Origin: Buxus sempervirens
Taxonomy: Eukaryota > Streptophyta > Magnoliopsida > Buxales > Buxaceae
Length of the DNA: 64,000 nt
Assembly: GCA_947561395.2 (NCBI GenBank)
Contig: OX387192.1
Span: 9,956,221-10,020,220, forward strand
Reading direction: 5' to 3'
Shown here: in pieces, positions 15,113 to 39,144 of the stretch
How the letters are laid out: each line of letters begins with the position of its first letter
Numbering within the stretch: position 1 is the stretch's first letter
The notes under the pieces: generated by a model
Databases searched by the model: none
The model's input: the letters and a program-made list of their open reading frames with translations, nothing else
What the model was told of the DNA's origin: nothing
Position numbers and translations under genes: made by a program

Positions 15113-16373
15113 GGGAAAATTTCAAAAACATGCCACTTTACAGCGATTATTACAAAAACATGCCACTTTTGAGAATTATTACCAGAAAGGGGTCATTGCA
15201 CGTTTGGGGAAATTGCAATGCCCAAAATGCCCTTGGATATAAGGGCATGTTTGCACGTGCCCCGTTCTCTCCTCTCCTCTCCTCGCCTCTCGCCCTCGTC
15301 CTGTGCGAGCGAAAAATCCCACCTGCGAAACCCTAAACCCGACGACGAACGCCGGCTAATCTTCTCAAAATCCGGCGAGCTAGGGTTGTTCCCGCGTTCT
15401 CTCCTCATTCTCTCCTCTCCTCTCCTCTCGTCCTGTGCGGAATTTCAAAAAGTGAGAACCCTGCGAATCCCAACCCTAAACCCGAAGCCGACGACGAACG
15501 ACCGGCCAATCCCTTCTTCGCCGGCGAGCTAGGGTTGTTGCCGGAGCAAGTTTGCTTCGTCTCCAAGCCCGACGAACCCCCACGAACCCCGACCATTCTC
15601 ATCTTCTTCTCCAGAAGGGCGAAACCCTCTCCTTCCCCCATTCCTCTCTTCGACTAAACCCTCTCGTTTCGTGCATTGTTTTCCTCTCCTCTCTATTTGC
15701 ACACATTGAGGAATTCGTCGTTGGAGAGCCACCGCGGTTGAAGTTTGTTGCCGTCGACGACCTGCTGTTCGTCGCCGTAGGGAGTGCTGCCGTTGGCGAC
15801 CAGGTAGCTGCCGAGTGCCTCCTTTGAATTTTATTTTGGGAAATTGAATTTAAATTTGCGCATTTGCATATTTGCACATATTTAAATGGTAATCTTCTTG
15901 TAGAAATGGCTTAAATTTCAATGATTCTGTTGTTTGCCTTAGCGAAATGTGCCCTTTCGAATTTGAATATGAGTTATTTGCATGTTTTTCGAATATTGGC
16001 TGTAGTAAATGTTTACACCATCGTTGTCCAACTATAGAAGCGAGCAAGCAGCTCCATTACACTGAAAAAAGTCCATGAATGATGTAGTGCTCTGAGTTAC
16101 GAATGTGTTCTGAAGCCATTAAATTTTTTGCTTCCACTCTAGCAATGGCCTTGTATAACCATGCTTCTTTAGAAGTTCTTCCCAAATTCAATGAGTTTGT
16201 TGGCTCTACCGATGAGACTTCCAATACTTAACAGATTGTTATTGGAGGTTTTTAATCTCTTCTATTTTAAACTGAAAAGCAAACAGCACCAAACAGATGT
16301 AGAGAGCTAGCTAGTGAGTAGTGACATAAATTTCAAACATTCACAAGTATATTTTAGCTTACACAATTTGCAT
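15113..16373 (+). repeat. MULE left terminal inverted repeat
   Basis: 1261 bp, matched in reverse by 37856-39144 with only scattered differences. It starts with two copies of a CAAAAACATGCCACTTT word (near 15123 and 15154). A GC-rich stretch (about 15290-15830) looks like a captured 5' UTR or first exon (AACCCTAAACCCGACGACGA, CTCTCCTCTCC runs) and holds a tandem duplication of about 130 bp (15291-15404 and 15421-15542). It probably carries the promoter for the + strand genes. The open frames in it are copied in both TIRs and show no known domain. Confidence 0.9.
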
Positions 16374-18071
16374 GAAATAATGGAACTCCCACGACAATAG
16401 TATCTTCGGATATCTCTTGTGCAGGCTTTTCAGGGTTGCTTGAGATGCTGGTTTTTTCTCCTCATTTGGACCAAAAACTGAACTTTTGCTTTTGCTATAT
16501 CTTCTTCATATCCTGTGACAATTCAAATCAAAAGGAATGAAAATTTCTCATCTTATAAGAGAGGCAAAGAGAGAGCAACCATAGTCTTTACAATTTAGTA
16601 AATAAAAGGTATATTTAACAGCCACATAACATTTTGAGTCCTCCTCTTCCCCCAAGCAGGTCAGTTGCATAAGAAATATGGAACATGATAATAGGCTTTT
16701 GGAGTGTGTTGTGAGGCATTAAGAAATATGGAACATGACCGACGCCTACCTAGTCCTTACTCCATACCAACAAAGCCTTCAATCATGCCTTCTTTTAAGG
16801 GTGAATGCTCCACTCCCCATGCAACCACCACAAATACTTTCACTGTCGTCATAGATCACAACCATCATATTAGCCTCGTGTCAGGTAATGACCCATGACC
16901 TGGAACCTATCAGCTGCAGTAGATAAGACTTTATAACCTTTGTGCCAAATCAAAGATCTGATGGTGATGATACCTTTGATAACAGATCCCTATTTCCAAA
17001 GGGGTAGTTTCACAAAGTGGCCTGAATTTAACATTGCCACCTTTGTGTTCTCAGGCTTAGACTCAGGACATCTTGATAGGAGACTGCACCTCAATTTTTG
17101 TAGTAGATATTGAACACAATATAATTAAGTAAATGTAAATACTTTTAGCACAAATAAGTGTATCTATTACCTCTCTTTTACCGTCTAATTTTTTGGTTAA
17201 ATAAACATAAATAAACCCATTAAAGATAGAGAGAGGAATTAAACCTTACTGCTACTGCCATGCCAAAATCAGTTACTTTTTGCATTGCACAGAGCATCAA
17301 GCCTTACTGCAAATGTTTATCAGCAGTAGATGCTGTTATGCCCATCACCTCCTCCTCCTCATATCATTATTTTCTGCTGAATCTGAATCAAAACCCACCT
17401 CTCCTATCATCCAATCTCAATCTCCAAAACAAATTAATAGATGTAATAAACCAAAAGATAACATTGAAAACACTGAAAACAAGAATATGGATCATAAGAA
17501 ATCTGAATTGACAAGTTGCCCAATGACTAAAGACTTTCAACAAATATATATAACAAAGCAACCAACAAAAAGCAGCACAACCCTCCTTTAAAGCAAGAAG
17601 ATGAACAGCATCAGGTCCAATGTTACCATCTATGGGGGTTAATGGTGTGGCTACATCAATTAATTTCCTTTGAATCACCTGAAAATTTCAATTACCAATA
17701 CAGGCAACTTAAAATGAACAACCAGCCAATAAGTTGTTGCAGAAATAAATCTATCAAGCAATGAAAAATGCATAAAAGCAAACAAAGAAATGAAATAAAA
17801 GTTTTTTACAAGGAACAAACAACCAGATAAGAATTAAACAAATACAGAGAATCATAGTGAAAAAGGCATAGCTTGCCAAATTTGATACCTAGTTCAGGCA
17901 TTTTGTGGCCAGAAAACATGGCAGAAGAGACCCTTCACCATCTGTAATTCAGGCATTTTCCATATGGAATGGATGTAACTTAATGGCCTATTAAACAGGA
18001 ATGAGGCAAGGTGGCATCTTGTATTAAAGTTTAAAATCATATTTTGTGTGTGAATGTTATGTGCCTTAGGC
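16374..18071. other. MULE internal segment with unidentified exon-like fragments
   Basis: No complete gene is seen. On the reverse strand two exon-like pieces have a plausible splice acceptor. One, at about 17575-17681, follows TTTTCAG and reads VIQRKLIDVATPLTPIDGNI and onward without a stop. The other, at about 17255-17315, contains VTDFGMAVAV, faintly kinase-like. Both could be captured host exons, but I cannot name the source genes. The rest is AT-rich with no signal. Confidence 0.35.
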
Positions 18072-20761
18072 ATGGATTTTGCACGGGATCAGGAGCGGGC
18101 GGCAGATGATGTGACTCACGTGCCGACAGATATAGATCCGGTAAGGCAAGCCATTGCATTATTTCTTTTATTTTACACATTCTTCTATACATCTCCTTTC
18201 ATCAATATGTTTTCATTGTCGTAGGTATTACGAAGTCACATTGTTCGTATGATCGGCTTTGCCCGTGACTTCACACGGCATTGTACCGACTTTGCTGCCT
18301 CTTTAAGCCACTCCCAACGACATCCACCACCGCCAGATGCTGAGCCCGACTGGCGTTCTACTGATGATGTGGCTCCTCCACCACCTCCAGATGCTGAGCC
18401 CGACTGGCCTTGTAATGATGATGTGCCTCCTCCACCACCTCCAGATGGCGATGGCACTGTTGATGCACACCCAGAGTTTTCATCACCTCCTTTTGCTGGA
18501 AGTGTGCCAACTGATGAACCCGCAACTACATCTGAGGGTCCAAGTACGATGCAATCTTGTCCCAGAGGTAGGGGGAAGAGAGTAAAGCACCTTGTACATA
18601 AATTGAGGTCACCCTTTGTCGAGACGCATAGATTCCCCCCATTACCTGAACGAGAGAAAAAAGCGTCGATGTATGCCATGACAGGGGGGTCGCCGATGTA
18701 AGTATATATCTTCTGTAATTGAGAGTAATTAACAGATTTACACCATTCAATATTATGTTTATAGTTGGTTGTTGTTTTTTTTTTTTTTTTTGCCTTATAA
18801 GTGGAATTGACGCATGCAGGGAAAAACTTGTTGATTTCGGTGATTGCTTTGCGACTCGATTCGATCTACTTGGTCTTTTTCCACGACGAAGGGTTAGCGA
18901 CCTGGTAAGTTATTTGTATCGAAAAGTCTATCATTTGTTTTAGGTTACAATGGTACTTGGATTAGTTTTCTCACTAAGGTGATTGTGGAATAGGTTATGC
19001 ACATGTATGTGCTTGCTCGTGTCAAATCTACGCGGGAACATGCATCAACTATCCGTCGTCATTACATTACACCCTATACATCTGTACGTATATAGGATTG
19101 TATGTTAGGACGCTTAGAATAATTAATTATCAATGCATATGGAGTACTACAGCGGACTAATATATTGTACTTGTGATTTACAGGCTGCAATCCTAAAAGG
19201 AACAGTGACTGTAGAAGATGCTGTACGAAGTCAATTTTCACAAGATGTTGTAGGATGTAGTTTGCTTCGATGTCATATGGTATGATAAATTTCGAATATT
19301 TTATTAATCTCATTTACATAATTATTAACGCCTAGTACACCTTGTATTGTCATTTGATAGGTTTTCCTACCGATCTTGAGGAGGAACCATTGGTTCCTGG
19401 TTGTTTTGAACATCAAGGACCAACGGGTCGAAGTGTTAGATTCGGTACCGAAGAGTCGGCCTGGTGATTACCGTGCTGTATCAACGAAATTGGTATGTAA
19501 AAAGCTATATAGTTTCAATGTATTATATAAATTGATATTGAATGGTTCAATTTTCATTGCAGACAACTTTTTTTTCAAAAGTCTTTGAGGAGCTTAAACG
19601 TGGCTGTGACAAGAGAGTGCAGGAGTGGTCAGTGGTGCCTGTGTCTGTGCCCTGTCAAAGTAGTTCGTAAGTTCCCAATTTTATCACTCATATGTTACCT
19701 TAAATTACATGACCATTATACAGATATTGGATAATGCCCTTAGGTTGCTTATTTGCTTATTTCCAAATAAGCAACCTGTGGAGCTCAAAGATGGTGTAGA
19801 TGGGAAGATGGAGAGACGATGTAAACTTAGTGAGATTATACAGTTGTATATTAGGATGGTTTAGTTATTTTGAGTGGATGTATAAATTGTATTTATCAGG
19901 TGGTCATTTGTGTTTGAGGGCTTAGCCCATACTCGTATTTACAGGCGTTATATAGCCGTTTTTCTGAAAAAAATTTAAGAGGTTATTTTGTGTGTTTGGT
20001 TAGTTCTGAAGTTGGTTTTCATTACTTTGGGCCCTAAGCTAGCGCCCAGGAGCCAATATAAACCTGATATGGGTCGACCTGGTTCCGGGGTGCCACATTC
20101 TTTTAGTCGTTGAGATTGAAACTCAAATATTATAGGTATATCATTGGGTATTATGATATAAATAATTCCAATTATTAAAATTCTTTAGCAAGATACGTAT
20201 TGGTGGAGTCTAATTTATTTTGATTTTATTTGTAATTCCAATTATTAAAATTATTTTAGCTAGATTCATTGGGTATTATCATCTGAATAATGGTGATATT
20301 TATTGAAGAATAAATCTTGAAATGAAATTAAAAGTATCCTCGGTGTTGCAATAATATTACATGCATAAAATACAGTGGGAAAAAACATGAAATCATTATT
20401 GTTCGATCATGAATAATTACTACATTGAATTATAGCTTTACCTTACCCCCAATAACACCTGTACTTTCTAGTTATTTGCCATGTCTACCTTCTCTTGATC
20501 TTTTCCATTTGTTGTGTAGTGACGATTGTGGTGTATTCGTAATGAAGTACATGGAATATTGGGATGGGCATCAATTGTCGACTAGGTTTGGGCAGGCAAG
20601 TATATATTTTCCTATGCAACTTGATGTGGTTAAGACTTACACAATTTTTTTTAGCAAGTGTTTCATTTAAATTGTAACAGGAAAATATTGGACACTTTCA
20701 GCATGAATTGTTAGCATACCTATTGCTCCACCCTGCAAACACAATCAAGTACCCGTTCTAA
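18072..20761 (+). CDS. Transposon Ulp1/SENP-like C48 cysteine protease
   Basis: Nine exons give 407 aa: 18072-18140, 18225-18697, 18802-18904, 18994-19083, 19184-19279, 19361-19492, 19563-19666, 20520-20595, 20681-20761. The sum is 408 codons with no internal stop. Exon 2 is proline-rich, with three copies of a PPPPPDAEPDW-type unit and a basic stretch (RGRGKRVKHL). The protease block follows: His in RNHWFLVVLNI, Asp in EVLDS, Gln in VPCQSSS and Cys in DDCGVFVMKYMEYWDG, a full C48 tetrad. It ends ELLAYLLLHPANTIKYPF. Known family members remove SUMO or similar modifiers; its substrate here is unknown. Intron 7 holds an LTR fragment and intron 8 uses a GC donor. The start is the first ATG before a good donor; an upstream non-coding exon in the TIR is possible. 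Confidence 0.85.
19735..20098 (+). mobile_element. Internally deleted LTR fragment in Ulp1 intron 7
   Basis: The words TATCAGGTG, TTTGAGGGCTTAGCCCAT, CTCGTATnTACAGGCGTTAT and ATAGCCnTTTTTC occur in the same order as in the solo LTR at 29936-32346 (there at about 30008-30085). It ends TTCCGGGGTGCCACA. The left border is uncertain. It lies between exons 7 and 8 and so need not harm the protein if it is spliced out. Confidence 0.6.
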
Positions 20762-21734
20762 TTGAGATGCTTAAACCTTCCTGAGAATGTGGATGCGTAC
20801 GAATTTCGACCTTCTTGAGTTGCATTCTTTCTAAAGTCTCTTAATTTTGTGACCTTCTTCTAATTTTTGTTTACTTTTGTATTAGATTATGAAAATTCCA
20901 AGAATTTAGTAGAAGCGATTTATATTCTTCTTTTTGAAATGCCTTTTCTGCTGTTCCTATTGCTGTCAGAGTGTTGTATCAGAAGATTCTCACTTTCATA
21001 GTATTATGAGCATACTGTCTGTAGTTGGACTCGTGGTATGTCTAGTTATGTGAAATTTTCTGAAGTCTTACTTGTTAGTTTTTTTCTGTCAACGATTTGT
21101 AACCTTATTTTTACATAACTTTTATCTTTCAGGCTTTTGTAATAGCATAGTTGTTGGGAATGGGACCCATTCCGTGGATTATATTGTCTGAGGTATGCAT
21201 AGTTTATTTAAATTGTTTACCACATCAATATAAGGAAAAATCCCTATTGTCAGTCTATTTTCACTTCAAGTCATTTGTCTTAGCACCAATGATGCTGATG
21301 CTAGTTTCGTCCTTCTTTTACGTGTCCTTCACGATGTCTCTTCGTCTTCTTACAACATTTTTTTGTGTATGCAAGCAAGCGTGGATCTATCCAGTACGGG
21401 TAATTGAGATGCTTAAACGTTCATGATAATGTGGATGCGTACTCTTTTCCATATCGTGAATACGACTACAAAAAGGACGGGGATTACAGAAATGGGAGAC
21501 AAGAAGGGATGGATGTAAAGGCCGATTGGCATAACTTTAAGGTTGTCGACTGATCAAAATCATGCGATAATGATTATCAGATCTTTATAATTGTTGATAT
21601 TTTATTATTATATTTGCATATAATATATTGGTATCAAGAGAGGGTATTGTATTAGTAGGGGTGCATGTCCCTGAATCTGTTGAAAGATGAACATTAATTA
21701 ATATGATCCAGTCCCGTGGTCCCGCCTATCGTTA
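20762..21734. other. Spacer between Ulp1 gene and array
   Basis: No gene is supported. At 20763-20795 and 21402-21440 the phrase TTGAGATGCTTAAAC...TGAnAATGTGGATGCGTAC occurs twice, so the end of the Ulp1 gene and its 3' region (about 600 bp apart) appear to be partly duplicated. Confidence 0.4.
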
Positions 21735-23095
21735 GCTCGAGTCCCATGTAAAATAATTCGAGTCCCTTGTAACATTGCTCGAGTCCTACATATACTTAGC
21801 TCGAGTCCCATGTAAAATAACTCGAGTCCCATGTAATTAGCTACGGCACTCACGTATACTAAGCTCGAGTCCCATGTAAAATTGCCCGAGTCCTACATAT
21901 ACTTAGCTCGAGTCCCATGTAAAATAACTCGAGTCCCATGTAAAATTGCTCGAGTCTCCCGTATACTTAGCTCGAGTCCCATGTAAAACTGCTCGAGTCC
22001 TACATATACTTAGCTCGAGTCCGATGTAAATTTGCTCGAGTCCCATGTAAAATTGCCCGAGTCCTACATATACTTAGCTCGAGTCCCATGTAAAATAACT
22101 CGAGTCCCATGTAAAATTGCTCGAGTCTCCCGTATACTTAGCTCGAGTCCCATGTAAAACTGCTCGAGTCCTACATATACTTAGCTCGAGTCTGATGTAA
22201 ATTTGCTCGAGTCCCATGTAAAATTGCCCGAGTCCTACATATACTTAGCTCGAGTCCCATGTAAAATAACTCGAGTCCCATGTAAAATTGCTCGAGTCTC
22301 CCGTATACTTAGCTCGAGTCCCATGTAAAACTGCTCGAGTCCTACATATACTTAGCTCGAGTCCGATGTAAATTTGCTCGAGTCCCATGTAAAATTGCCC
22401 GAGTCCTACATATACTTAGCTCGAGTCCCATGTAAAATAACTCGAGTCCCATGTAAAATTGCTCGAGTCTCCCGTATATGTAGCTCGAGTCCCATGTAAA
22501 ACTGCTCGAGTCCTACATATACTTAGCTCGAGTTCGATGTAAATTTGCTCGAGTCCCATGTAAAATAGCTCGAGTCCGATGTAAATTTGCTCGAGTCCCA
22601 TGTATCCAACTGCTCGTGTCCGATGTAAAATAGATCGAGTCCCATGTAAATTTGCTCGAGTCCCATGTATACTTAGCTCGAGTCCAATGTAAATTTGCTC
22701 GAGTCCCATGTATACTTAGCTCGAGTCCGATGTAAATTTGCTCGAGTCCCATGTATACTTAGCTCGCGTCCGGTGTAAAATAGCTCAAGTCCCATGTAAA
22801 TTTGCTCGAGTCCCATGTATACTTAGCTCGAGTCCGATGTAAATTTGCTCGAGTCCCATGTATACTTACCTCGAGTCCCATGTAAAATAACTCGAGTCCC
22901 ATGTACAATTTGCTCGAGTCCCACGTATACTTACCTCGAGTCCCATGTAAAATAACTCGAGTCCCATGTAAATTTGCTCGAGTCCGATGTAAATTTGCTC
23001 GAGTCCCACGTATACTTAGCTCGAGTCCCATGTAAAATTGCTTGAGCCCCACATATACTTAGCTCGCGTCCCATGTAAAATTGCTCGAGTCCCTC
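21735..23095. repeat. Tandem array of 21-22-bp CTCGAGTCC units with 171-bp higher-order period
   Basis: More than 60 units of the type gCTCGAGTCCCATGTAAAATTg. Variants (CCTACATATACTTA, CTCCCGTATACTTA, CCGATGTAAATTT) recur in a fixed order of eight, giving 22+22+21+21+22+21+21+21 = 171 bp. The marker word GCCCGAGTCCTACATATAC falls at 21884, 22055, 22226 and 22397, exactly 171 apart. After about 22600 the order becomes irregular. Most units carry a CTCGAG palindrome. The array ends about 150 bp before the TATA box of the GRF gene. Reading frames through it are an artefact of the 21-bp period. Confidence 0.95.
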
Positions 23096-23243
23096 CTACT
23101 AAAAGTCCTATGTTGGTGTCCTTGAGTCGTATGTCAAGTACGGTCGAGTCCTTAGTAAATAGGTCAAGTGCCCTCATATTTTGCGTGCTCGCATCTACTA
23201 ATACAACCAACGTGTTTCACGTGGGCCTGCCTTCCGGCTCGTT

Positions 23244-23251
23244 TATAAATA
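23244..23251 (+). promoter_or_regulatory. TATA box of the GRF gene
   Basis: TATAAATA lies 51 bp before the proposed ATG, between the end of the array and the gene. This places the array in the position of an upstream regulatory region. Confidence 0.55.
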
Positions 23252-23301
23252 CAAGTGTGTCAAGCGAGTCAATTATGCGCTACCCTTTGTGCGAAGGAAG
23301 A

Positions 23302-23973
23302 ATGGAAGTTTCGGCAAAGGCTACCGATCCCCACGCTCGTGTCCCATGTCCATGCGGGAAAGGGATGCTTAAAAGGAAACTCTCCCACACCTCACGTAAT
23401 CCAGGGTGCTTTTTTTTCACTTGTCCATCGTCTGTAAGTATGCATTTTTACCAATCTGGCCATTCAACTATTATAAGACTGTCTAAATTAAATGCATTAT
23501 TTCTTACAGGGCAATGGTGGGAATGGATGTGGGTATTTTGTTTGGTGCGATGAGTTATTACTGTGTGAATGTGGGAGGGGACCATGCCGTGTGTTAACCG
23601 CAAAAACTCCAACGAACAAAGGGAGAAGATTTTACCGATGTCCTTTTGAAGTATGTGTGGAGTTGTTTAGCACTCAAATACGTTCCTCCCACACGAGATA
23701 TTTTGCACAATGGGGACTTCCTAATTGATTTTCATGTCATTGTATTTCCAGGGCGAACAAAGCTGCCATTTCTTCTCCTGGTTGAATGAAGTTGGGGTAG
23801 AAAAGGGTGAATCGTCGAATTCATGCGATGCAGAAAACACTGAACAAATACAGCCAAGGGCATGGGAAGTAGAACGACGGCTATTGCAGGAGGAGCGTGA
23901 TCATGCGAGAAGGATGTCCGACATATACCGTGAGTTGCTTCACGACATTGACAAAGTTAAACTGGACGAATGA
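23302..23973 (+). CDS. Double GRF-type zinc-finger protein
   Basis: Three exons (23302-23433, 23510-23650, 23752-23973) give 164 aa with no internal stop. Two zf-GRF-like modules follow each other: CPCGKGMLKRKLSHTS, then NPGCFFFTCP and CGYFVWCDE; and CECGRGPCRVLTAKTP, then NKGRRFYRCP and CHFFSWLNE. Each is split by an intron at the same place, just after the CP dipeptide, which points to an exon-pair duplication. The tail (EVERRLLQEERDHARRMSD and on) looks like a short coiled coil. GRF fingers in other proteins bind single-stranded nucleic acid; the role in the MULE is unknown. The gene follows the Ulp1 gene on the same strand, and the tandem array lies directly upstream. Confidence 0.85.
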
Positions 23974-24306
23974 ATTGGTTAACCGGTGATGGAGATGCAT
24001 GTTTGGTGTGGTTGTCATTGAGTTTTGGTTACAAAATGCTACTAAATGTAGTTTTATTTGGTCTGACAAAATGCTAGTAAATATTGTGTAATATGTAACT
24101 GAAGACCATGTATGAGAACCTAAAAGTAGTTTTATTTCCATTTTCATGGAAAAGGAACATTATGTTTGATACAATGTTCACATTCACTAAAGGTATTATG
24201 AAAAAGAACTTACATCATATAGTGCCCAGAAAATAAGAATGAAGGAAATAGTGAAAATGGAGACCTCAATCACTCTTCATTGGTTAACTGCAAATTGTGA
24301 AAACGT
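23974..24306. other. Intergenic MULE DNA
   Basis: AT-rich sequence after the GRF stop, presumably its 3' UTR. No further feature seen. Confidence 0.3.
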
Positions 24307-24387
24307 TACCCCTGTATAAGTCCACCACTGTATGGCCCACGCCTTGTGACTTCCATTTGATTAATCAACTCCGTTGCTTTTACCTGT
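24307..24387 (-). pseudogene. Captured exon of anthranilate synthase alpha subunit
   Basis: After an acceptor-like GATACAG the reverse strand reads VKATELINQMEVTRRGPYSG followed by GLIQG and a stop. VKAxELIxxxEVTRRGPYSGG is the conserved block of plant anthranilate synthase component I, the chorismate-binding enzyme that starts tryptophan synthesis. Only this exon, including its 5' splice context, is recognisable. The reading stops where the host exon would continue (GGI). It is too short to be functional and fits transduplication by a Pack-MULE-like process. Confidence 0.75.
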
Positions 24388-24649
24388 ATCACAATTGAAG
24401 CTCCCATTCAGAAATGCAGCAGGTACCAACCAAAAGAAAAACAAAGAAACGCCCTTTCTTTTACTATCTTAGGATCTCACAATCTCAATACATAACACAA
24501 TTTTCCAAACAACAAACAAAGGATTTATCTTCTCCAACAAAATTTCTGGGTTTATGTAATGACTCAGACAACTAGATAAAATCTTTAATCAATTCATTGG
24601 CCGGACCCTGGTTCCAAAGACTGTGAAGTAACCTATTAAATCACACAGC

Positions 24650-24775: not shown

Positions 24776-25723
24776 ATTTTCTTATTGCAGAAATCCATAG
24801 CTGTTGACTGGAAAACTCCACTTACGACAAATGTGTACATTTGATTGAATGTTTCAGAAACGTAAATATTAAAAGGGGGAAAAAGTACAAGGTACCCACA
24901 AGGGTTGAGCAAACAGAGTAAAAAACAAAACAACAAAAAAGTCCAAAAACCCTTGGGAAGAAAAACCAAAACCCAACAAAAATTACTCCATAAATGCTAC
25001 AGATGACCAATTGCAAAACACTTATTGTGATAAAGGTGTTGCTTTAAATATCTTGTTGTGGCAGCTTGACGAAACATAACTGTTAGGTGGACTTTTAAAG
25101 CACTGGCTCAATAAATTTGGGAGACATCCCAGATTCCATATGACTGAAGAAATCCAATATTTATAATTGCAGTTCCCACCATGTGGCACCTTTAGATACC
25201 TCGATCAACCTGCAAGTTCAAGGTCCCACATTTCATAAAAAGATTTAATGCCTCTCAAACATGGAATTTATTGATATTTAAACAATCTACAATTCCATAG
25301 AAATAATACAAGATTTGAGCCTTAAAAGGCACAAATTCTAACACAATTAGTAAGAATTAACATAATACAACACCAATGGCATTCTGCCCCAAGTGGGTAT
25401 CCATGTAGTGCATGAATATCCATAGAAATACACTCCAAATTAACGGTCTTAAATAGACAGGATCGAACTTAATTAAAGCATAATCCGGGCCACTTATATA
25501 ATGATATAACAGGAGCTGCGCTTCCGGCCTCCCTCATTTTAGGCATCTCTTTTAGCATTTGATAGTAATCACTCATCGGGAACAATGCAGTACTGGAGCC
25601 ATAGCGTTGTTTATGTTATGATCTGCATATGCAAAAGCATGTAAGAAATCTGATTTCGACTTATACACAACAAGCGAAAGGGGAAGGGAGAGAGGGAGAG
25701 AGAAAGCACCTCGTTTCTTACAC

Positions 25724-26870
25724 GCTTAAGCCTTTTGTCTCTGGGACATAAAACACCACGAATAGAAGTACTAGCAAAGCAATTGCCCCAAAAAGGAGGA
25801 ACAGATTAGCTGCACCCAGAATCTCCTGCAGAATTAAGAAATTAAAATGCGGACTAATTCATGATCAACCAATTCGATAAGTGGGACTCTAAAGTACTAA
25901 TCATGATAAATCGATTACTAAGTTTATATACTAAACTGAAAATAAATTCGTACCTTCAATGGGAAGAAAGCGGAAGCCACAATGGCATTTGAACCAAAGT
26001 TTGTAAGAACTGCAAGACTAATCCCTCTCCCTCTTGTGCGAAGTGGAAATATCTCAGATACCATTCACCAACTAATTGCTCCAAATGATATCTGAATGTC
26101 ATTTGAACAACATAAAAACCATTAGTAAAGCAATTCTTTCCTTGATTAAGCAATTATGCTGTTCTTCATGCATTCACCGAAAATGTAATCAAATAATTGG
26201 GTGATTCAACAAAAGGTGAATGAAAGGACTCCATTGAAGGATCTCATGTACCAGTACCTGCAAAGAGATAGTAGCCCCGGAGGTAGCACCAATATCATAT
26301 CCAAATAATAAGCCTCCAAAGGCTGGGAACAAGAACCTAACATTTTCTGTAATTAGTCCTTGCAGAGGGAACAAACACACACTGAATTTAGGTTTCCCCA
26401 ATTGGTGTTCAATACCATTTTTGGAAAAGGACAACAAGATAAAAGGAAGCATCATGGACCTCTTTATTCAATTTCAAGGTGGTGGATAAATATATTAAAT
26501 ATCATCGATAATTCCATCCATGTAACAGCTGTGGCCTTCTTAGTTTCCTTCTGTGAAGTGTGAACCCATAAATTAAAAGAGCGCCCATCACAATACATAT
26601 ACAATATCTCATGAAAAGGAATCTCAGTTTTAATGTGCAAGACATCTCAAGTACTTAAAGAAAGAATAACAAATGTCAAAAAAAACTTGCTCATTGGTAT
26701 TATGACGTAGGAAGGGGGGAAAAAAACAAAAATATAATAGTATACGAAACATTCACTTGGGAGCACCATGCTACCTGCAGCCTTTACTCCCAAATGATAA
26801 CTTGATGGAGATTTCACGAAGCCAGTCTTCTTCCTCAGTTTGCAGATGGACCTGCATTCACAGACACAAA
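25724..26870 (-). pseudogene. Captured plastid-type D-xylose/H+ symporter-like sugar transporter fragments
   Basis: Four separated reverse-strand pieces resemble the major-facilitator sugar transporter family that includes Arabidopsis At5g59250. Near 26800-26865 is KKTGFVKSPSSYHLGVKAAG (a possible transit-peptide exon). At 26256-26350 is RFLFPAFGGLLFGYDIGATSGATISLQ-type sequence (first membrane helix), ending at a GT donor. At 25955-26095 is ISFGAISW, a stop, then MVSEIFPLRTRGRGISLAVL and on. At 25724-25826 is EILGAANLFLLFGAIALLVL with PETKGLSV and a stop. The large middle of the transporter is missing, and one W-stop-M replaces the expected W-L-M. It is a dead, transduplicated gene fragment with host introns retained. 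Confidence 0.8.
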
Positions 26871-29188: not shown

Positions 29189-32100
29189 CTATATTGAAGC
29201 TCTGCAACTTGCTCGGTTGTGTCCAACACCCTTGCATCTGGAACAATGAACCTGTCGCTTGTCTTGGAATTGTGATTCAATGCGCTTCTGCTTAGGGCGC
29301 CCTGGACGTCTTGCTGTCTTTGGTGGGAACGAGATAGATGGGGTTTCACTTGAATCTTCTATGGAAACCACGTCGATGTCCTCAACCATGGGGAAGTCAT
29401 GTGTTGGCACAGCATGCATCAATTCGTCGTATATCAACCCTTGCGTTGCCTTGTGGTAGCATAGGTCGACAAAGTCATATACATTGAGCCTTACCAAGTT
29501 CAAGACGGCACATGCATGTGCACAAGGAATGCCCACCATCTGCCACTGTTTGCAAGTACACTCACGACGGATTAAATGCACCATGATATATATCTCATCA
29601 CCTCTAACTTCATATTCATGTTGCCCACATTGAATGACACTCAGCCCCAATGCTCTAGTGAGATTCTCCTGAATCTTGGCATCAATTCGACCACCAACAT
29701 TGGACACCCACGTGTCAATACACCTCCGCTTCCTCATCAATAGCTCTGTAAGCTTCACTCGATGTGCATCAATAAACCGCATTACAGGCAATTTCCTTTC
29801 TTCTACCATCCAAGCATTGAATGATTCCGCTAAATTTGAATTCAGCTTATCCCACCGTTTCATAGGGAACAATGAATTGGCCCAATGTTCGGGCCCATTC
29901 CTCCTCACCCAATCAGCTAAGTCAGGTGCATATTCTGTAAGACCCTGATTTTTTTTGTGAGGTTATCCATTATTTATTTATTCAGTTGATATACATAAAC
30001 TGTGTTTATCAGGTGTTTAGTGTGGTTTGAGGGCTTAGCCCATGCTCGTATGTACAGGCGTTATATAGCCATTTTTCGGAAAAATATTTAGTATTATCGT
30101 ATGATTATTATTGTATAGTGTCTACGTATTAATTAATTTATTTAATATGTCGATGCCGAGTATGTGGGGTTTTAGTGGGCGAGCGCGCATCGGATAAGAA
30201 AAAAAAGGAAATGCATCAAACGGCGTATGTCTCGCGGGGTAAAAAAATACCCAAGGGGGAAAGTAGGGTTTGGGTTGTAGGAATACGCGTAACTTGCGTA
30301 ACTTACGGAGGTAATCTTCGTTAGAGTTAGAGCTGGGCGATTTGGCGACTGCGGCGGAAATGGCGATTTGGGGTTATTCTCAGGAAGAAAAAGACTCTGA
30401 GGGACTACTAGAAGCTCATTCGAGTTGGATTTAGGCGGGTTTTCTCTCTCGTGAGCAGCGAACAGTTCGACTACCATTTCGGCTACCATTTCATCTTCGC
30501 GCATTCGGGATCGTGATCGGCCGATTTCGAGAAAGGCTATCAATCTGGGATTAATCGCACACTGGTGAGTGGCATTGTTTTACAACCGAGGTTTCGGATT
30601 ATTTCGTATATTCATTGAATGATATCATGGTGTTGAATTGCATTGATATTGAGGTTTCTGGGCGACACAGTTACGGAGGGTTTTGGTTTTGCACAGTGAA
30701 ATTGGGGATAACTGGGAAATCATGTAGATTAAATTCAAATTAGGTTTGGATGTATCCTGGGAATATTAGGAGGCTATATGGGTGGTTACAGACTGAAAAA
30801 TTACAGCCAGAGATGGATTTCTGGGATTAACAGAGACCTGGAACCGAGAATGACTTACCGCCTAGCTGGCGCTTACCTAGCGCCCACCTAGGAGGTGAGC
30901 GCCAAGAAAAGAAGACCCGGCGTCGAGCTAGCGCCCACCTCGCGCCTAGCTCGCGCCTACCTCAAACTCTCGCGCCTTTCTCGCGCTTTTCTCTCGCCCG
31001 TCTGGCGCCTAGCTAGCGCCCACTCGTCCACGGGTGAGCGCAAGCTTCAGTTAAACGAAGGGACTTACCGCCCACCTGGCGCCCACCTGGCGCCCACCTC
31101 AGGGAAGTGAGCGCCCAGTGGTTTTCGTGCAGAATCCTAAAATTTCACAAAAACAAAAGGGTGTTCTGGATAATAGGGGTTCTTCAACCACTTAACCAAC
31201 TAATAGATTTCGACATTAGAGGTAATAAATCTTGCTGGTGAGAACAATGGAGATAGATACTAGTTTTAGTACAAGCTTATGAGGTAGGTGTGGAGAAATG
31301 TTTCGAGGATGCTCGGGATGTTCACATACTAGGGCTTTATTTTAGTCCTCTTGAAATATGCATTGTTTGGTACCTGATTTGGTTTATTGAACCCCGTTTT
31401 GATGGCAAGTTTCGAATGAGGTTGTAATTATTATTTATTTGATTTCTTGTGTGAGTTGATGTTCTGGTTGGAACACTTGTGTGAGTTGATGTTCTGGTTG
31501 GAACACTTGTGTGAGTTGATGTTCTGGTTGGAACCACGGGTGATGTGTACTAATGCAGAATTTTAAACAGTTAATTATCGGTTTGGGTTTAGCTTCCCAT
31601 GGATCCTTGTTAAGCTTAGTAATGTGATGGTATGTGTTTGTTGGTGTAATTGCATGGCCACGTGTGTTGCCACGACCAGTGTAGAGCAGCCAGATACCCT
31701 GAGTAGGCCTGGTTGTCAGTGCCGATACCCGGAGTAGGCCGGCACTGGATGACGATACCCTGAGTAGGCCGTCATTTCAGAGTTTCCGATACCCTGAGTA
31801 GGCCGGAACTGTGTACATGGAGGTGTGGAGTGTCTACTTGGCATGTAAATTAATCAATGTAACCATATGCATGGCATTGACCTGGTTTGAGTTGTTATCG
31901 AAATCTACGTTGTTATTATCGTTGGTTATTTGTCGAAGCATGTCTTATAACTGTGTTAACTATTTTATGCATGCATGTGTCACTCGCTGGGATATTCGTA
32001 TCTCATTCCCTCGTTGTTACTTGTTTTTCAGATATTCGTGGTGAGGTGCCTACAGGGGTAGATCCGGCTGATACATATAGGGAGGAGGATTATTACTACC

Positions 32101-33894
32101 GACCTTAGTCCAGCAGGTTGTTCGGTCTTAAACTGTTAAGTTGAATTTTGAGGATTGTAATAAGATAGTAAACTTGGGACCATTTGATGATTTCATAACT
32201 TGCCTGGATAGAAATGTTGAATTGTGCACTCTGATATGATATAAAAGGCGGGTGATTATCCAGCGATCACCATTATTGAGATCCTTAACTAACCCCTAGG
32301 AGACGTGTTATATCTTTAATGAAGAACACGGATCCGGGGCGTTACATATTCATGCATGGCAGCCAATGCCTTATCGTAGTCCCGAGGGAGCCTTGCGTAA
32401 GCAATATCATCAAGTAACCGTAAGGCAAATTTCTTTCCCTCCCTCAAATGAAAGGATCCAACGAATTTACTAAAGTTTTCCTTCAGATGTGGAAGACAAT
32501 GAGAGTTGCTCCTAGCGCCAAAGGTAGCACTTACTGCAGTTATAATGCTTTGATTCCTGTCACTTACAATGACTAAATCCTCTCTGAAGGCTATGGATGA
32601 CTTAAGAAGTTGTAGAAACCACATCCAATCCTCATTATTCTCAGCACTAACAATTGCAAAGGCAACTGGAAACATGCCGTCATCAGCATCGAGGGCTGTA
32701 GCAGAAAGCAACGTGCCCTGGTATGGCCCACTGAGATGACTTCCATCAATGAACAACAGTGGTCTGCAACCGATCGCAAATCCCCTCAAGGAACATCCAT
32801 AAGCAATAAACAATTGCTTAAATTTTCCATCTTCACTTGCTGCCCAACTTGCCACTGTGCCAGGATTACTCTCTTGCAGCCGTTCACACATCCATGGGAT
32901 GAACTTATAAGACTCCTCCACATTACCATCTATCCTCTGTTTCGCCTTTTCCTTGCTCCTCCAACATTGCTGATATGTCAATGGCATTGCATGATCATGA
33001 TAAAAGTCTTTGCCAATTTGTCGTGGCAAGTAGCTTGGAGTGTTCCTAATTGTCCTCTCAATCACACCAGAAAGGAACTTCGTTCTCACAACCGGTTTCA
33101 TAGACAATTGCTCTTGGGCTGAGTGGCTATGCTCCTTCACAAACTTCATCACCCTCATAAAACTCGTATCCCTTACACGTCTTGCCGTTACCTTCCAAGG
33201 ACAATCCGTGCCTGCACAACAGACACTAATGTATGCTGGAGAATTTTTTTTCATCACATATTCAAACCTATTGGCAATAGCATGATTGTACACTGCTTCT
33301 CTAAACTCCTTAGGGCTCTTAAATATCTGGTCGACCTCAGTAATTGCATCCTGCCACAGGCTAGATACAAGGGGACCTCTGCTGACTTCAGTGCAACTTT
33401 CAAGAAGCGGAGTCTCCCGATCCTCTACTTCATCGTCATTGCACGGAAGTACAGAGTGACCACTTAAAGGTACACTCGTCCTGAAATTACAAAATATATG
33501 ACTATCATTACATGTAATATGGAGGAAACATAATCCCATGTACGGTTAATGAAAATTACCTCCGACAAGTGTCTCTTTCTTGTGATGATCCTTCATCATT
33601 ATAGACATAAATGTTGGCCCAACCCTCGTTGTAGCGAAATAGGTACGATAACGCATCTTGATCAGTGAGTGCCAGTAGAACGCTCTTGTCAAACTTGACC
33701 GAGTACTTCATACTTACACTCACCGGGGATATATTCAATAACCGACAAACAGCTTCAACGACCTCAGTATAATTCATGTTGCTATTTAGATCGATACCCT
33801 TACTACTTCCCCCACTATACCCCATTGACCCATCTTCCTTGGTGATTACTTGTCCTCCAATGTGACAAAAACAGAATAGAATCTCACCTGACAT
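29189..33894 (-). pseudogene. mudrA-like: MULE transposase (mudrA-like), split by a solo LTR
   Basis: Exon 1 is 33894-33560. Exon 2 is 33480-32347, is interrupted, and resumes at 29930-29189. Without the LTR and one duplication copy the coding length is 2211 bases, 736 aa plus stop, in frame. Exon 1 has a PB1-like fold signature (VSVSMKYSVKFDKSVLLALT). Exon 2 begins with the MuDR N-terminal region (FKSPKEFREAVYNHAIANRF). Then comes the DDE catalytic core: Asp in FIDGSHLSGPYQG, Asp in VIVSDRNQSI and Glu in NLAESFNAW. The C-terminal part has a SWIM finger (CTCKQWQMVGIPCAHACAV), a GRPKQKR basic patch and a CCHC knuckle (CSRCKGVGHNRASC). It cuts and pastes the element in related systems. The LTR lies between the second Asp and the Glu, so this copy should be inactive. 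Confidence 0.88.
29936..32346 (+). mobile_element. Solo LTR (2411 bp) in the transposase gene
   Basis: Begins TGTAAGACCCTGATTTT and ends GGGGCGTTACA, flanked by TATTC at 29931-29935 and 32347-32351. A TATA-like GTTATATAGCC lies near 30059. A GC-rich block (30860-31115) repeats TAGCGCCCACCT/GGCGCCTAGCTAGCGCC words. Three exact 30-bp repeats (TTGTGTGAGTTGATGTTCTG type) occupy about 31447-31535, and four GATACCCTGAGTAGGCC repeats lie at about 31691-31805. Its likely protein-coding parent is a gypsy element, but no internal region remains. Confidence 0.9.
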
Positions 33895-35469
33895 TGTGCA
33901 CTGTCCAGCGAATTGAAATATTAAATTCTTCATATTCAAATATAATGGAAAAAATATATTTTGAAATATTACAACATACTAAAATAAATATGACTCACAA
34001 GACAAGAATACATAGGCAGATCAGGTATGTCAGTCAATTCCCCTCAAATCCCCTCAAATTAATTGAAGACAGATGTTGGGGAAGACTTTAGACTTAAAAA
34101 AATTGTAAATAAAAAATAAAGGTTGTAGAGTTAAATTATAATTCTATTTCCCTAGTAGGAGGTTTTCACTTCAAAACAACTACCAGAAATAGAAACAAGA
34201 GAAAAAGAGACCAATTAAATGCAACATACTGCTATTAAACTGGATCACCAACACCTATTACATTTTAATGGCTTATGCAGATGAAATGCGGAATGTTTCT
34301 CTCAAAAAATCAATGGTAAACAAAACTTAATCCACAAACAATAAAATAACTGCAAGAAAGTGGGTTACATCTTATTTTTAATGCATATTAGGTGACTGCA
34401 GGTAGCGTTTCAACAAAACTAATGACGTTGATTAAATTTCCAATAATAAGGATTTTCATGCTTGAATAAAAGAACTACTGGACCTTGAGGGAAAAGAATT
34501 TAAGAGGGCCTCACATTGCCTTTAGCACCCCATAACCAATAAACCCAACCCTTCAGAGGCACCAGTCTAAAACAATGACAAAATACAAAATAATTGAAAC
34601 ACCATTTTCCTACATTAACAGAATCTCTTTACAAGGATGCTTGGCTGACCAGATACATCACAGTGGAAATCCCGGTGTGACAATTTCTACAAATGTTAAA
34701 TGAGTTGGCAAGACTCGTCTTGTCCATGTGCTCGTCCAAAGTTGCAGCCACAAACACATCTACTAAGCGGAAAAAGCAGCCTCTTTTCCAAATTTCTTTT
34801 TCTTTGGCAAAATACTAGGAAAAGTGTTAAAAACAAAAAACTTGAGACCACACCGTACGAATAACACAAGACAATTCAAGGTATGAATAGCACATTTCCA
34901 ACCAAAAGCACCAAAACCCTGTCTATGTGGTCGGTAAGATCTAAAAGAATTGATCACAAATGTGCGTGCACATATGCTTGGTTAAATACATATGTCTAAG
35001 TGTACTTGTGGAGATGTTTCAGAATCAAAACATTCACCACATAGCAGGTAGCACAAATGAGTTTGATAAAAAAAGTGTATCATTTTTGTGCATAACTTCA
35101 GAAAACAATTCCAGAGCTGTTTTTATGCATAAATAAATCTACAAAAATGTATTAATGTGGTCCATATGAGTTGAAATAATGTCAATATGGTTTATATCAG
35201 GGTCCCATTAGGTGGATGATTTGGATCAGCCAAATGAAACATCTAGCTAAATACTAAGAAGCTTAATTAAAAACAAAAAACTTAATGACTCTACTGTAAC
35301 TAATAACAGAATGATTCAAACTATGAATAACTGAATATCACATTTGCCAAGCAAAGCGCAAAATCCTATCATAATAATTAACAAGAATACTTCTTGTTTC
35401 ATTTGGTAACGTGGGAATCTATTTGTAAAAAGAAACAAGAGGGGGGTCTTGGGTTGAGGCCACTAAAGT
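33895..35469. other. MULE segment without recognised genes
   Basis: This lies upstream of the transposase start and should contain its promoter and 5' UTR. AT-rich, with many short open frames of no known domain. I see nothing else that can be supported. Confidence 0.3.
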
Positions 35470-35800
35470 TATTTACCAAAGCTTAAACTCAAATGCCATT
35501 CCAAATTGGGCGACTCAATTCCCTCCAACTGCTCCCTTAGTTTTTTTGTAGGCAATGAAAGTGGATTCCTTATAGAAGAGTTGGAACACTTGCCACTCAA
35601 AGATAAATTGGCTATATTTAACCTTGGGAATGTCAAAAGCAAAAATGAAGCAACAAGGGCAAATCTAAAGGGGAAGCCAAAAATTGTGGATTTGCAGCTT
35701 TCGTGGCAAAGCATTGGCGATGATGATGATACTAGAAATGATGAAGATGTCCTGGAGGGACTTGAAATCCATCAATATTTGAAATCCAAAATATTTTATA
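35470..35800 (+). pseudogene. Captured NBS-LRR resistance-gene fragment (LRR part)
   Basis: The forward frame contains LEHLPLKDKLAIFNLGNVKS, KNEATRANL, IVDLQLSW and EDVLEGLEIHQYLKS, the order typical of the first LRRs of CC-NBS-LRR (RGA-like) proteins (LxxLxxLxI-x-LENVxxKxEAxxAxL...LxLxWnnn...EdVLEgLqPHxnLK). The frame runs out soon after. No NB-ARC motifs are present. It lies in the MULE arm before a Helitron-like 3' end at 36371, so either a MULE or a Helitron could have captured it. Confidence 0.7.
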
Positions 35801-36341
35801 GGTACACAGTTTGTGTACCTATGTTTACAAAACTATATTTTCAGGAACAGAACAGAGAACTTATACATCATTCTTACATCATGCTTACAACCCATGCTGT
35901 CCCCTTCTAATCTGGAAACATTTCACACTGATTGGGAAACATCTCCACCCCTTAATGTTTACTTGACATCTGAGTTTGTAGGTGACAAAGGCAGTGTTGG
36001 TTCAGGATTCGGTGTAGTAGCAGGTACAGGCTTTTGCGAGTCGTGAGAAATCCAATGAATGGGTTGGGAAGAAAGGTTGCCATAGATAGTGTTTACAAGC
36101 TTCTCACAAAAACCAATTGGAGCTGAAGGGTGGGATTCCTTTTCCATAAGTAAGAGGGGAAAGACATATTTGGAAAGTCCGAAGAACAAAATCTAAGCTT
36201 AAAAAAAGATATCAATGATTCATTTAATCACTGATTTACTTGAATGTAGAAAAAGTGTGAACATTCATTAATCATGATGTTGCAATATTTTTTCTAATTT
36301 TACTAACTATTTTTTGTCTTTTTAATCATATCAACTCACAA

Positions 36342-36371
36342 AGCCCATGTATCGCACGGGCTGCCTGCTAG
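36342..36371 (+). other. Helitron-like 3' end
   Basis: AGCCCATG-TATCG-CACGGGCT forms a hairpin with one mismatch, followed by GCCTG, then CTAG, then T. This is the standard layout of a Helitron terminus. A TC-starting sequence (A|TCTATTATATATAGC at 36380) follows nine bases later and could be the 5' end of a second Helitron. No Rep/helicase sequence was seen. Confidence 0.45.
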
Positions 36372-36379
36372 TATTTATA

Positions 36380-37855
36380 TCTATTATATATAGCAATTGG
36401 TGAACTCTTGAGAGAGCTCCAAACCTAGGACTCTCCATCCTGGTAGCTCGACATTACTGCCAATGTGGCACCTTACCTGTCACAATATTAAAAAAATCGT
36501 TTAATCTATATCATCCACTATAATCACGTCGTTCCATCTACCGTAACATCTCCGTTAGAAATTCGGGTTCCCCAACTTCGTCTATTCCGCTCCTAGATTC
36601 TCTCAGACCGTCTATTCCTATACCCTTTAACAGGCCACTCTCCCCCATTGGCACTGCTCTCATTCATTCTTTCTAAAAATCAAGCACTAGCTCTTCCTCT
36701 CCTATCACAAACGTGCCTCTCTCTTCCTCTTCCCAACCTTGAAGCTGATGTTCAATAAATTTAGAGGTACACAAACACTGTAAAAGCTATGATTTTGGAG
36801 CTTTTTTTTAAAGTCTATGTTTCAGTGTTTCTTAATATTGTTGAAACAAGTGCCCTGTTTAAAGGCCTTATAACCTGGTTTGGTGTCTACCCTATCTTTT
36901 TTCGGTTCCCATTTCCACCAGGTTAATGTGCTGGCCGTCTCCAAGAATGACCAGTTGTCCTGCTACGGCCGACCATGATGAGCCCTTGACGCTATAATAT
37001 GCAATGATCAAAACTGAACTCCTCTGGATCATATCAGTAGCATCATGGATAATGGGTGATAGGTGCATTATGCTGCATTTTAATTTTTATGATCCCGCCT
37101 CTATCTTGGATGCTTTTTCATTTTATTTTCATTATTTCATTTGGCAATTGAATCTCTTCTTGATATTTCTAATTGTTTAGACAATTGAATTTTAGGCCTT
37201 CTTGTTTCTTGTCTGTTTCTGAGGATTTTAAAAAGTTGCTAGTACTTGAGATGAATCTGTGCACCAGGGATACAATTGAGTTTGACCCTGTAAGTTAACA
37301 TTCTACATCTCTGCTTTCTTAATATTCATTTTGTTTTATTAGTGTTGAAGACAAATTTGATAGCACTGCTTTGATAGTGTTTTCCCTTTCATGACACGAA
37401 GCATAGGTTATATGTATTGGTGGCTTTATAGAAGTCCTACCAAATAGGAGAAACCCATATTCTAAATTTATTTTTTCACATATTTTGATTATATAAGTTC
37501 CTCAATCGAATTTCCCAAATTTATTTTAACTTTTTTTTTTTTGGGTAATAAAAGTAGGTGCCTTAGGATTTGGAATTGGGAATTCTTAAGAGGATGGATT
37601 GATGGATACTTAATTGAAACCCTGGAATTCAACTCGGCAACAAAAAACCAATCTCTTGACATTGTAATGTTTAGCTGAAAATGTGATTCAGAATTGCAAT
37701 CCTTCAGAAATAAAAGACATTGCAAGAAACATATGAGAATTGATGAAGGTACTAAAAGGCATTTCTTGGGATAACTCAATGACAAATAATATAAAAATCA
37801 AAGATTGATGCCTACAGTTCGAATACAATGATAAATTTAATTTGCTTTTTATACT
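36380..37855. other. MULE right inner segment, possibly Helitron-derived
   Basis: Exon/intron-like composition with no continuous open frame and no domain I can name. It begins with a Helitron-like 5' motif. No matching 3' terminus was located before the right TIR. Confidence 0.3.
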
Positions 37856-39144
37856 ATGCAAATTGTGTAAGCTAAAATATACTTGTGAATGTTTGAAATT
37901 TATGTCACTACTCACTAGCTAGCTCTCTACATCTGTTTGGTGCTGTTTGCTTTTCAGTTTAAAATAGAAGAGATTAAAAACCTCCAATAACAATCTGTTA
38001 AGTATTGGAAGTCTCATCGGTAGAGCCAACAAACTCATTGAATTTGGGAAGAACTTCTAAAGAAGCATGGTTATACAAGGCCATTGCTAGAGTGGAAGCA
38101 AAAAATTTAATGGCTTCAGAACACATTCGCAACTCAGAGCACTACATCATTCATGGACTTTTTTCAGTGTAATGGAGCTGCTTGCTCGCTTCTATAGTTG
38201 GACAACGATGGTGTAAACATTTACTACAGCCAATATTCGAAAAACATGCAAATAACTCATATTCAAATTCGAAAGGGCACATTTCGCTTAGGCAAACAAC
38301 AGAATCATTGAAATTTAAGCCATTTCTACAAGAAGATTACCATTTAAATATGTGCAAATATGCAAATGCGCAAATTTAAATTCAATTTCCCAAAATAAAA
38401 TTCAAAGGAGGCACTCGGCAGCTACCTGGTCGCCAACGGCAGCACTCCCTACGGCGACGAACAGCAGGTCGTCGACGGCAACAAACTTCAACCGCGGTGG
38501 CTCTCCAACGACGAATTCCTCAATGTGTGCAAACAGAGAGGAGAGGAAAACAATGCACGAAACGAGAGGGTTTCGTCGAAGAGAGGAATGGGGGAAGGAG
38601 AGGGTTTCGCCCTTCTGGAGAAGAAGATGAGAATGGTCGGGGTTCGTGGGGGTTCGTCGGGCTTGGAGACGAAGCAAACTTGCTCCGGCAACAACCCTAG
38701 CTCGCCGGCGAAGAAGGGATTGGCCGGTCGTTCGTCGTCGGCTTCGGGTTTAGGGTTGGGATTCGCAGGGTTCTCACTTTTTGAAATTCCGCACAGGACG
38801 AGAGGAGAGGAGAGGAGAGAACGAGGAGAGAACGCGGGAACAACCCTAGCTCGCCGGATTTTGAGAAGATTAGCCGGCGTTCGTCGTCGGGTTTAGGGTT
38901 TCGCAGGTGGGATTTTTCGCTCGCACAGGACGAGGGCGAGAGGCGAGGAGAGGAGAGGAGAGAACGGGGCACGTGCAAACATGCCCTTATATCCAAGGGC
39001 ATTTTGGGCATTGCAATTTCCCCAAACGTGCAATGACCCTTTTTGGTAATAATTCTCAAAAGTGGCATGTTTTTGAAATTTTGCATCTTTATGGCATGTT
39101 TTTGTAATAATCGCTGTAAAGTGGCATGTTTTTGAAATTTTCCC
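37856..39144 (-). repeat. MULE right terminal inverted repeat
   Basis: Reverse complement of 15113-16373 with few differences. It is longer by 28 bp, explained by an extra copy of the terminal CAAAAACATGCC motif (near 39070-39105), so this end has three such words against two on the left. It probably holds the promoter for the transposase side. Confidence 0.9.

Follow-up and report, generated by a model that had tools for sequence, protein, structure and literature searches.

Results

A long-TIR Mutator-like family carries four genes and a tandem array

The window analyzed here is a 64,000-nucleotide stretch of Buxus sempervirens DNA (assembly GCA_947561395.2, contig OX387192.1, positions 9,956,221 to 10,020,220 of the forward strand), and it holds a 24,032-bp Mutator-like element (MULE). 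The element almost certainly represents a family with long terminal inverted repeats (TIRs) that carries a mudrA transposase, a protein joining an HMG box to a plant mobile domain (PMD), a tandem GRF zinc-ribbon protein, a Ulp1/C48 cysteine protease (ULP), and an array of 21/22-bp units, the transposase of the window copy being split by an insertion that resembles a solo long terminal repeat (LTR; Table 1). With a probability of about one half, we infer that the HMG-PMD protein acts through the array as an anti-silencing factor of the element.

The TIRs aligned over 1,256 bp at 98.6% identity, differing by six substitutions, one 29-bp indel, and one 1-bp indel, and the outermost 53 bp, with GGGAAAATTTC at the terminus, were identical. 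Outside the TIRs, AAAAATTAA was found at both borders (9/9 positions). Target duplications of about 9 bp are expected of MULEs, and the long TIRs together with the duplication place the element among them. A sequence-only reading of the window had proposed matching 1.26-kb TIRs, a perfect 9-bp duplication, and four multi-exon genes with closed frames. The TIRs and duplication were recovered as described, and closed multi-exon frames were found for Ulp1/C48, tandem GRF, and HMG-PMD but not for mudrA, in which 2,411 bp interrupt an exon. Immediately to the right of the element lies an AT-rich repeat tract (39188–40103) that is self-similar in direct and inverted sense.

To find other copies, the left TIR was searched against the genome that holds the window (676.5 Mb in 247 contigs); of 305 first-look candidates, 40 were scored. 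The 41 resulting rows, which include the two TIRs of the window element, comprised one 49-bp piece and 40 near-full-length TIRs at 92 to 100% identity, the shortest spanning 1,097 of 1,261 positions. A recount gave 17 opposed pairs of 4.4 to 25.2 kb (window element included) plus six unpaired TIRs. Seven long pairs and one 4.4-kb pair among the 16 others were read whole and two long pairs in pieces, six pairs and the six unpaired TIRs falling outside the sample; fractions such as six of nine are therefore not genome-wide rates.

ULP, array, GRF, HMG-PMD, and mudrA occurred in the window's order and orientation in six of the nine other long copies. Four of these were read whole (C4:20777930, C15:16472200, C12:18368078, and C10:23996645; 20.7–22.1 kb) and two in pieces without their ends (C1:49303235, also without a 1.5-kb inner gap, and C3:45988478). 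The partial copies were C11:5138514, with ULP and GRF; C14:15798568, with a frameshifted ULP, GRF, and the first transposase exon; and C14:4466793, which lacks GRF but has ULP, mudrA, and part of HMG-PMD. Because the four genes recur between these TIRs in other copies with order and orientation unchanged, they belong to one element, as the sequence-only reading had held when it pointed to further four-gene copies as the relevant evidence, and separate nested elements with overlooked borders are ruled out.

Among copies read whole, the 9-bp flanks matched at 9/9 positions for the window, C4:20777930, and C15:16472200; at 8/9 for C11:5138514 and C14:15798568; at 7/9 for C12:18368078; and at 3/9 for C14:4466793, while C10:23996645 has a damaged left end. 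The 4.4-kb pair (L027, G000:C15:5950547-5955192) is a gene-less foldback in which the element's left 2.3 kb occurs as two opposed copies, and its printed flanks both read TATTTAAAA (9/9).

Table 1. Positions in the window of the element, its genes, and associated features.
Feature	Position	Strand	Basis or remarks
9-bp target site duplication, left copy (AAAAATTAA)	15104..15112	.	identical to right copy
Left TIR, 1,261 bp, starts GGGAAAATTTC	15113..16373	+	alignment to right end
Ulp1/C48 cysteine protease gene, 9 exons, 401 aa	18072..20761	+	gene model, PF02902; exons 18072-18140, 18225-18697, 18820-18904, 18994-19083, 19184-19279, 19361-19492, 19563-19666, 20520-20595, 20681-20761
Tandem array, 21/22-bp units, core CTCGAGTCC, candidate binding array	21732..23093	+	46 exact cores
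Tandem GRF zinc-ribbon gene, 173 aa	23275..23973	+	gene model, PF06839; exons 23275-23433, 23510-23650, 23752-23973
Captured sugar-transporter (Sugar_tr) fragment, nonfunctional	25721..26450	-	PF00083 25.5 bits vs 22.3; edges approximate, by eye
HMG-box and plant mobile domain gene, 7 exons, 411 aa	26980..28726	-	gene model, PF00505, PF10536; exons 28726-28644, 28554-28500, 28415-28281, 28202-27600, 27503-27366, 27284-27210, 27126-26980
mudrA transposase 3' part (SWIM zinc finger)	29189..29935	-	profile search
Solo-LTR-like insertion, 2,411 bp, TG..CA ends, 5-bp duplication GAATA	29936..32346	-	within transposase coding exon
mudrA transposase 5' part, exons 33894-33560 and 33480-32347	32347..33894	-	DBD_Tnp_Mut (PF03108), MULE domain (PF10551)
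Captured R13L1/DRL21-type leucine-rich repeat (LRR) fragment	35467..35907	+	PF25019 58.2 bits
Right TIR, 1,289 bp	37856..39144	-	alignment to left end
9-bp target site duplication, right copy (AAAAATTAA)	39145..39153	.	identical to left copy

The HMG-box protein contains a PMD with a predicted VANC21-like fold

The HMG box occupies residues 17 to 80 of the HMG-PMD protein (PF00505 46.0 bits; cutoff 25.4) and the PMD residues 163 to 323 (PF10536 47.7 bits; cutoff 34.9). The sequence-only reading had correctly recognized an HMG-box gene but missed the PMD, and the protein is a single HMG-PMD fusion. In structure comparisons, the predicted PMD matched VANC21 as its sole clear counterpart in the PDB. 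PDB matches of the HMG box included RAG-HMGB1 entries; a three-helix HMG-box model was built only for the host relative P0013.

Searches with the HMG-PMD protein returned 135 protein matches. Both PF00505 and PF10536 were carried by 104 of the best 120, many of which also carry a SINA zinc finger (PF21361); those among these 120 whose names could be recognized are eudicots. These entries (P0001–P0120) represent a conserved plant gene with an HMG box and a PMD, for which our literature search found no paper. Their domain order, in which the HMG box is joined to the PMD via GGYG.GEV, is shared with the element protein, while they differ in their strong conservation and, in many cases, the SINA zinc finger. 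One explanation is that the element took its gene from such a host HMG-PMD-SINA gene and uses the product as a decoy or dominant-negative form of a host chromatin protein. That the best whole-protein relatives are these plant genes, and that the likeness stops before the SINA part, is consistent with such an origin. However, host genes from 25 species were 74 to 95% identical to one another and only 36 to 39% identical to the element protein, so any exchange must be old, and recent capture is ruled out. The trees, which drew on 40, 25, and 17 of the 120 listed host matches, also leave the direction unsettled: a PMD-only tree placed host genes on one side (support 87/76), a second placed a very long window branch among the host genes, next to Ericales rows, and a third, from the 25-species comparison, placed the window on the asterid side. 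By these sequence comparisons the trees disagree on placement and do not settle the direction of exchange, and the decoy explanation appears quite improbable.

On the minus strand of the window, outside the element, lie a decayed PMD stretch (~11230–10603) and a C48 piece (8959–8744), relatives of the accessory genes.

A same-strand tandem array precedes the GRF gene

The 1.36-kb array contains 46 exact copies of CTCGAGTCC, all on the plus strand and mostly spaced by 21 or 22 bp; no exact match was found elsewhere in the window, TIRs included, or on the other strand. Observed/expected CpG was 1.26 in the array as compared to 0.61 in the window, weak evidence because the repeated unit itself contains CG; at 63 AGTC-anchored places, CG was kept at 59 and replaced by TG at one and CA at one. 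An array with the same core was present in all nine other long copies, confined to a single strand within each, with 31 to 57 exact cores in the seven whole copies, 50 in one C1 piece, and 29 in one C3 piece. Array span and unit make-up varied between copies. The distance from the last core to the GRF ATG was constant at 191 bp in the seven copies measured, window included, and TATAAAT lies 31 bp upstream of this ATG in the window.

In the mechanism that we favor, a PMD folded like VANC21, a DNA-binding protein, would recognize the CTCGAGTCC-type array motifs, all on one strand, while the HMG box would bend or grip DNA. HMG-PMD bound in this way would act sequence-specifically to clear family copies of silent chromatin, as VANC does on VANDAL elements; removal of silencing would allow the transposase to be expressed and to move copies via their TIRs. 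Two further roles are by analogy only: the Ulp1 protease would desumoylate proteins of silencing or repair, and the tandem GRF protein would bind single-stranded DNA as excision and repair proceed. Both the predicted VANC21-like fold of the PMD and the array lend support to the sequence-only reading's view that the transposon has a regulatory module of its own.

A different role for the same protein is that of a transposition cofactor, in which the HMG box would bend the 1.3-kb TIRs for pairing by the transposase, the PMD would direct the protein to the element, and the array would be a promoter or enhancer of GRF. HMGB1 helps RAG, and the clear HMG box with its RAG-HMGB1 matches fits this role, as do the fixed 191-bp spacing and the TATAAAT before the GRF ATG. 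We nevertheless consider it unlikely, as the PMD has an anti-silencing protein for its sole clear match in the PDB and the TIRs hold no exact CTCGAGTCC.

Several observations weigh against an anti-silencing HMG-PMD. The PMD models are only 10 to 18% identical to VANC21, no sequence link between the two appeared in our searches (best 60 of 74 matches listed), and the match covers residues 297 to 521 of the VANC21 chain, which need not be the DNA-contacting part. The array could be a GRF promoter or an ordinary expanding minisatellite. Arabidopsis PMD genes act in silencing, the opposite sign (PMC5418596, PMC7156037). A gene-less derivative with matching 9-bp flanks exists (L027). Comparisons between copies, given below with their scope, also count here: ULP changes were 47 nonsynonymous-type (N) to 11 synonymous (S), a pN/pS of ∼1.5, which implies that the protease may not be needed, and a protein-guided recount gave 48:13, with 13 N:2 S in the C48 part; GRF showed 3:1 in only four changes; and HMG-PMD showed 6 N, one of them a stop, to 5 S, which is suggestive only.

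Protease, GRF, and transposase genes

The window protease scored 53.2 bits against Peptidase_C48 (PF02902; cutoff 20.7) and aligned to SENP2 across the HW, LDS, PCQ, and DCG motifs, in which we place the catalytic residues H, D, Q, and C, in agreement with the intact C48 tetrad described earlier from the sequence. These motifs were identical in seven aligned copies, the frameshifted C14:15798568 being left out. One intron of the gene is of the GC-AG type, exon 20520-20595 having the GC donor. A protein search found no relatives of the window ULP protein at E 0.001 among 5,212 candidates. The GRF protein matched PF06839 in two stretches (78.8 bits) within an open three-exon frame, consistent with the double GRF protein first proposed, and its two PDB matches were the tandem GRF of NEIL3 (7omk and 7jl5).

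The transposase was identified by PF10551 (56.7 bits), PF03108 (56.6 bits), and SWIM (29.4 bits) and lies in two pieces, parted by 2,411 bp inside a coding exon. The insertion has TG..CA ends, a 5-bp duplication, and no second LTR copy, features for which we call it solo-LTR-like. It was absent from all seven other copies fetched whole, which rules out a normal intron of the family, and its 3% coverage in other copies most likely reflects a short related stretch of ULP intron 7. The insertion site was uninterrupted in the seven read copies that retain it: an exact 20-letter junction was found in the five whole copies retaining that part and in C3:45988478, and in C1:49303235 both transposase parts were contiguous without a gap, the 20 junction letters not matching exactly. 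A frame-keeping GT..AG reading across the insertion can be written by inspection of the junction letters, which may explain why the sequence-only reading saw a closed transposase frame. The stretch shared by ULP intron 7 (19882–19977) and the insertion (29995–30090) is 87.6% identical, and an older related insertion may thus lie in the intron.

Related transposases suggest that parts of the accessory set may sit beside such genes in other plants. The 5' transposase part had 106 matches, the closest a Vitis protein (42% identity over 99%). By identity and share of the transposase query, the related predictions were P0127 (42% over 92%), P0226 (68% over 10%), and P0220 (32% over 51%) of Vitis and P0144 (36% over 99%) of Rhododendron. 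In P0127 and P0226 the sequence continues as PMD-like (BLAST E values 7e-11 and 1e-16), P0220 has a C48 domain (33% identity to the window ULP across 99 residues), and P0144 begins with a GRF domain; Pfam listed neither HMG box nor PMD for P0127, P0226, and P0220. In a transposase tree, the window fell with a group that includes P0144 (support 87), with the Vitis PMD and C48 proteins in a neighboring group. As these proteins are gene predictions, they may reflect adjacency rather than true fusion. At eight other MULE transposase loci (L001–L008), no accessory-protein match was found within stretches of ∼3.3 kb each, wider flanks lying outside this scope.

Open frames, selection, and captured fragments

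Frames were assessed by projecting the window exon borders on the seven whole copies, splice sites lying outside the test. The ULP frame was open in six of seven copies, GRF in all six that retain it, HMG-PMD in three of five, the 5' transposase part in three of six (one of which keeps the first exon only), and the 3' part in four of five. All four frames were open in C4:20777930, C12:18368078, and C10:23996645, while in C15:16472200 both HMG-PMD and the 5' part of the transposase have 1-bp deletions.

Changes between copies, window included, were counted as N and S (expected ratio 2.87 for ULP), with C14:15798568 excluded from the ULP and 5' transposase counts and C14:4466793 from those of HMG-PMD and the 3' part. 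The transposase alone showed constraint by itself (14:10 in the 5' part and 2:4 in the 3' part; together 16 N:14 S, p = 0.006). Purifying selection between copies was not seen on ULP, and across all four genes it was not shown (pooled 72 N:31 S, pN/pS 0.77, p = 0.14).

These counts bear on the possibility that the accessory genes are captured passengers, kept by hitchhiking with a transposase that alone matters. The ULP pN/pS of ∼1.5 is in line with it, and the element also holds sugar-transporter and LRR fragments. Derivatives without HMG-PMD and without most or all of the transposase persist between TIRs, and together with the 9-bp flanks of the gene-less foldback they indicate that movement in trans needs none of a copy's own genes. 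However, the captured fragments are broken and patchy, the sugar-transporter fragment reaching 36% coverage in the four four-gene copies fetched whole and the LRR fragment occurring in two of seven other whole copies, and both stand outside the conserved gene set, whereas the four genes are multi-exon and occur together in six of nine other long copies. PMD-like, C48, or GRF stretches are also joined to related transposases in the Vitis and Rhododendron predictions, and the protease motifs are unchanged between aligned copies. A pure passenger status of the accessory genes is therefore doubtful, and we continue to favor an anti-silencing HMG-PMD. The PMD, the array, and both captured fragments were additions to the content given by the sequence-only reading.

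Elsewhere in the window, a 1.8-kb direct repeat (47149–48979 and 57794–59593; 95.7% identity) has neighboring pieces of 0.8 kb, with long retrotransposon-like reading frames, judged by eye, between its copies (∼52500–54500). At 50900–51870 and 60922–61127 lie minisatellites whose long open frames consist of repeated peptide units.

Discussion

We consider it a tentative possibility, somewhat short of an even chance, that PMD and VANC are one fold family; that the MULE family described here is a second anti-silencing system, with a VANC-like PMD, extended by an HMG box, operating on a self-made CTCGAGTCC array; and that the eudicot HMG-PMD-SINA gene, along with MAIN and MAIL, descends from or gave rise to transposon proteins of this kind. 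If true, silencing and anti-silencing of plant transposable elements would share one DNA-reading fold. The function of the PMD is described as unknown or undetermined in PMC5418596 and PMC7156037, and the predicted match to VANC21, which has been solved with its DNA, offers a concrete hypothesis for that function. The family also provides test material, namely three copies within a single genome whose four frames are all open, a candidate target array at a fixed place, and HMG-PMD-less derivatives as natural comparisons.

The sequence-only reading considered the four-gene combination undescribed. A search that was thin on subscription papers and preprints found neither the four genes reported together in one element nor a report of a MULE with an HMG-PMD gene; the novelty is narrower than claimed, however, in that ULP-bearing and PMD-bearing MULEs have been published and the Vitis and Rhododendron predictions contain partial sets. 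The comparisons below follow the cited sources in excerpt, among which PMC6446971 and PMC6419827 were also drawn on.

In ULP-bearing MULEs the protease may face either way, and TIRs may be present or absent (PMC2528002). They are known from Arabidopsis, melon, rice, and grape, those with TIRs coming from grape and melon (PMC2528002, PMC13317346). The window family is reminiscent of Kaonashi (KI) MULEs, which combine mudrA with an Ulp1 domain on the opposite strand (PMC2528002, PMC13317346), and here too Ulp1 (plus strand) opposes mudrA (minus strand). However, KI-MULEs lack TIRs (PMC2528002), while the window family has 1.26-kb TIRs together with tandem GRF and HMG-PMD genes, and it is not a non-TIR KI-MULE. 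KI-MULEs and VANC genes with Ulp1 are treated in PMC13317346. The family is not a Pack-MULE either, a class of nonautonomous elements with host gene fragments (definition from PMC9168764): fragments are present, yet the family encodes a transposase.

VANDAL21 and VANDAL6 of Arabidopsis, with their anti-silencing VANC proteins (PMC5735166, PMC10398659), resemble the window family in being multi-gene MULEs and in having same-strand tandem repeats of varying length, and the PMD of the window family is predicted to share the VANC21 fold. VANC and RNA-directed DNA methylation are covered in the same two sources, and the VANC21 structure is cited as unpublished in PMC8756742. The array of the window family is likewise noncoding, on one strand, and changing between copies, although this likeness is one of pattern only, as the motifs differ. 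VANC-type proteins (DUF1985/DUF287) are further characterized by sequence-specific binding and loss of methylation. VANDALs are non-TIR MULEs (PMC13317346), unlike the TIR-bearing window element, and the excerpts of PMC5735166 and PMC10398659 make no mention of VANDALs with HMG-box or GRF genes.

MULE-encoded PMD-C of grasses and Amborella offers another parallel, being a MULE-borne PMD with a proposed anti-silencing role (PMC5418596); there the PMD is fused to the transposase, while in the window family it is encoded by a separate gene and fused to an HMG box. PMD families, the capture of PMD-C by MULEs, and the anti-silencing idea are set out in PMC5418596, and PMD together with PP7 in PMC7156037. 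The predictions from Vitis (P0127, P0226, and P0220) and Rhododendron (P0144) likewise place PMD-like, C48, or GRF stretches beside a related transposase, but each contains only a subset of the four-gene set. The window family is thus a multi-gene ULP-bearing MULE, to which the link between the PMD and VANC folds, as predicted, and the array add interest.

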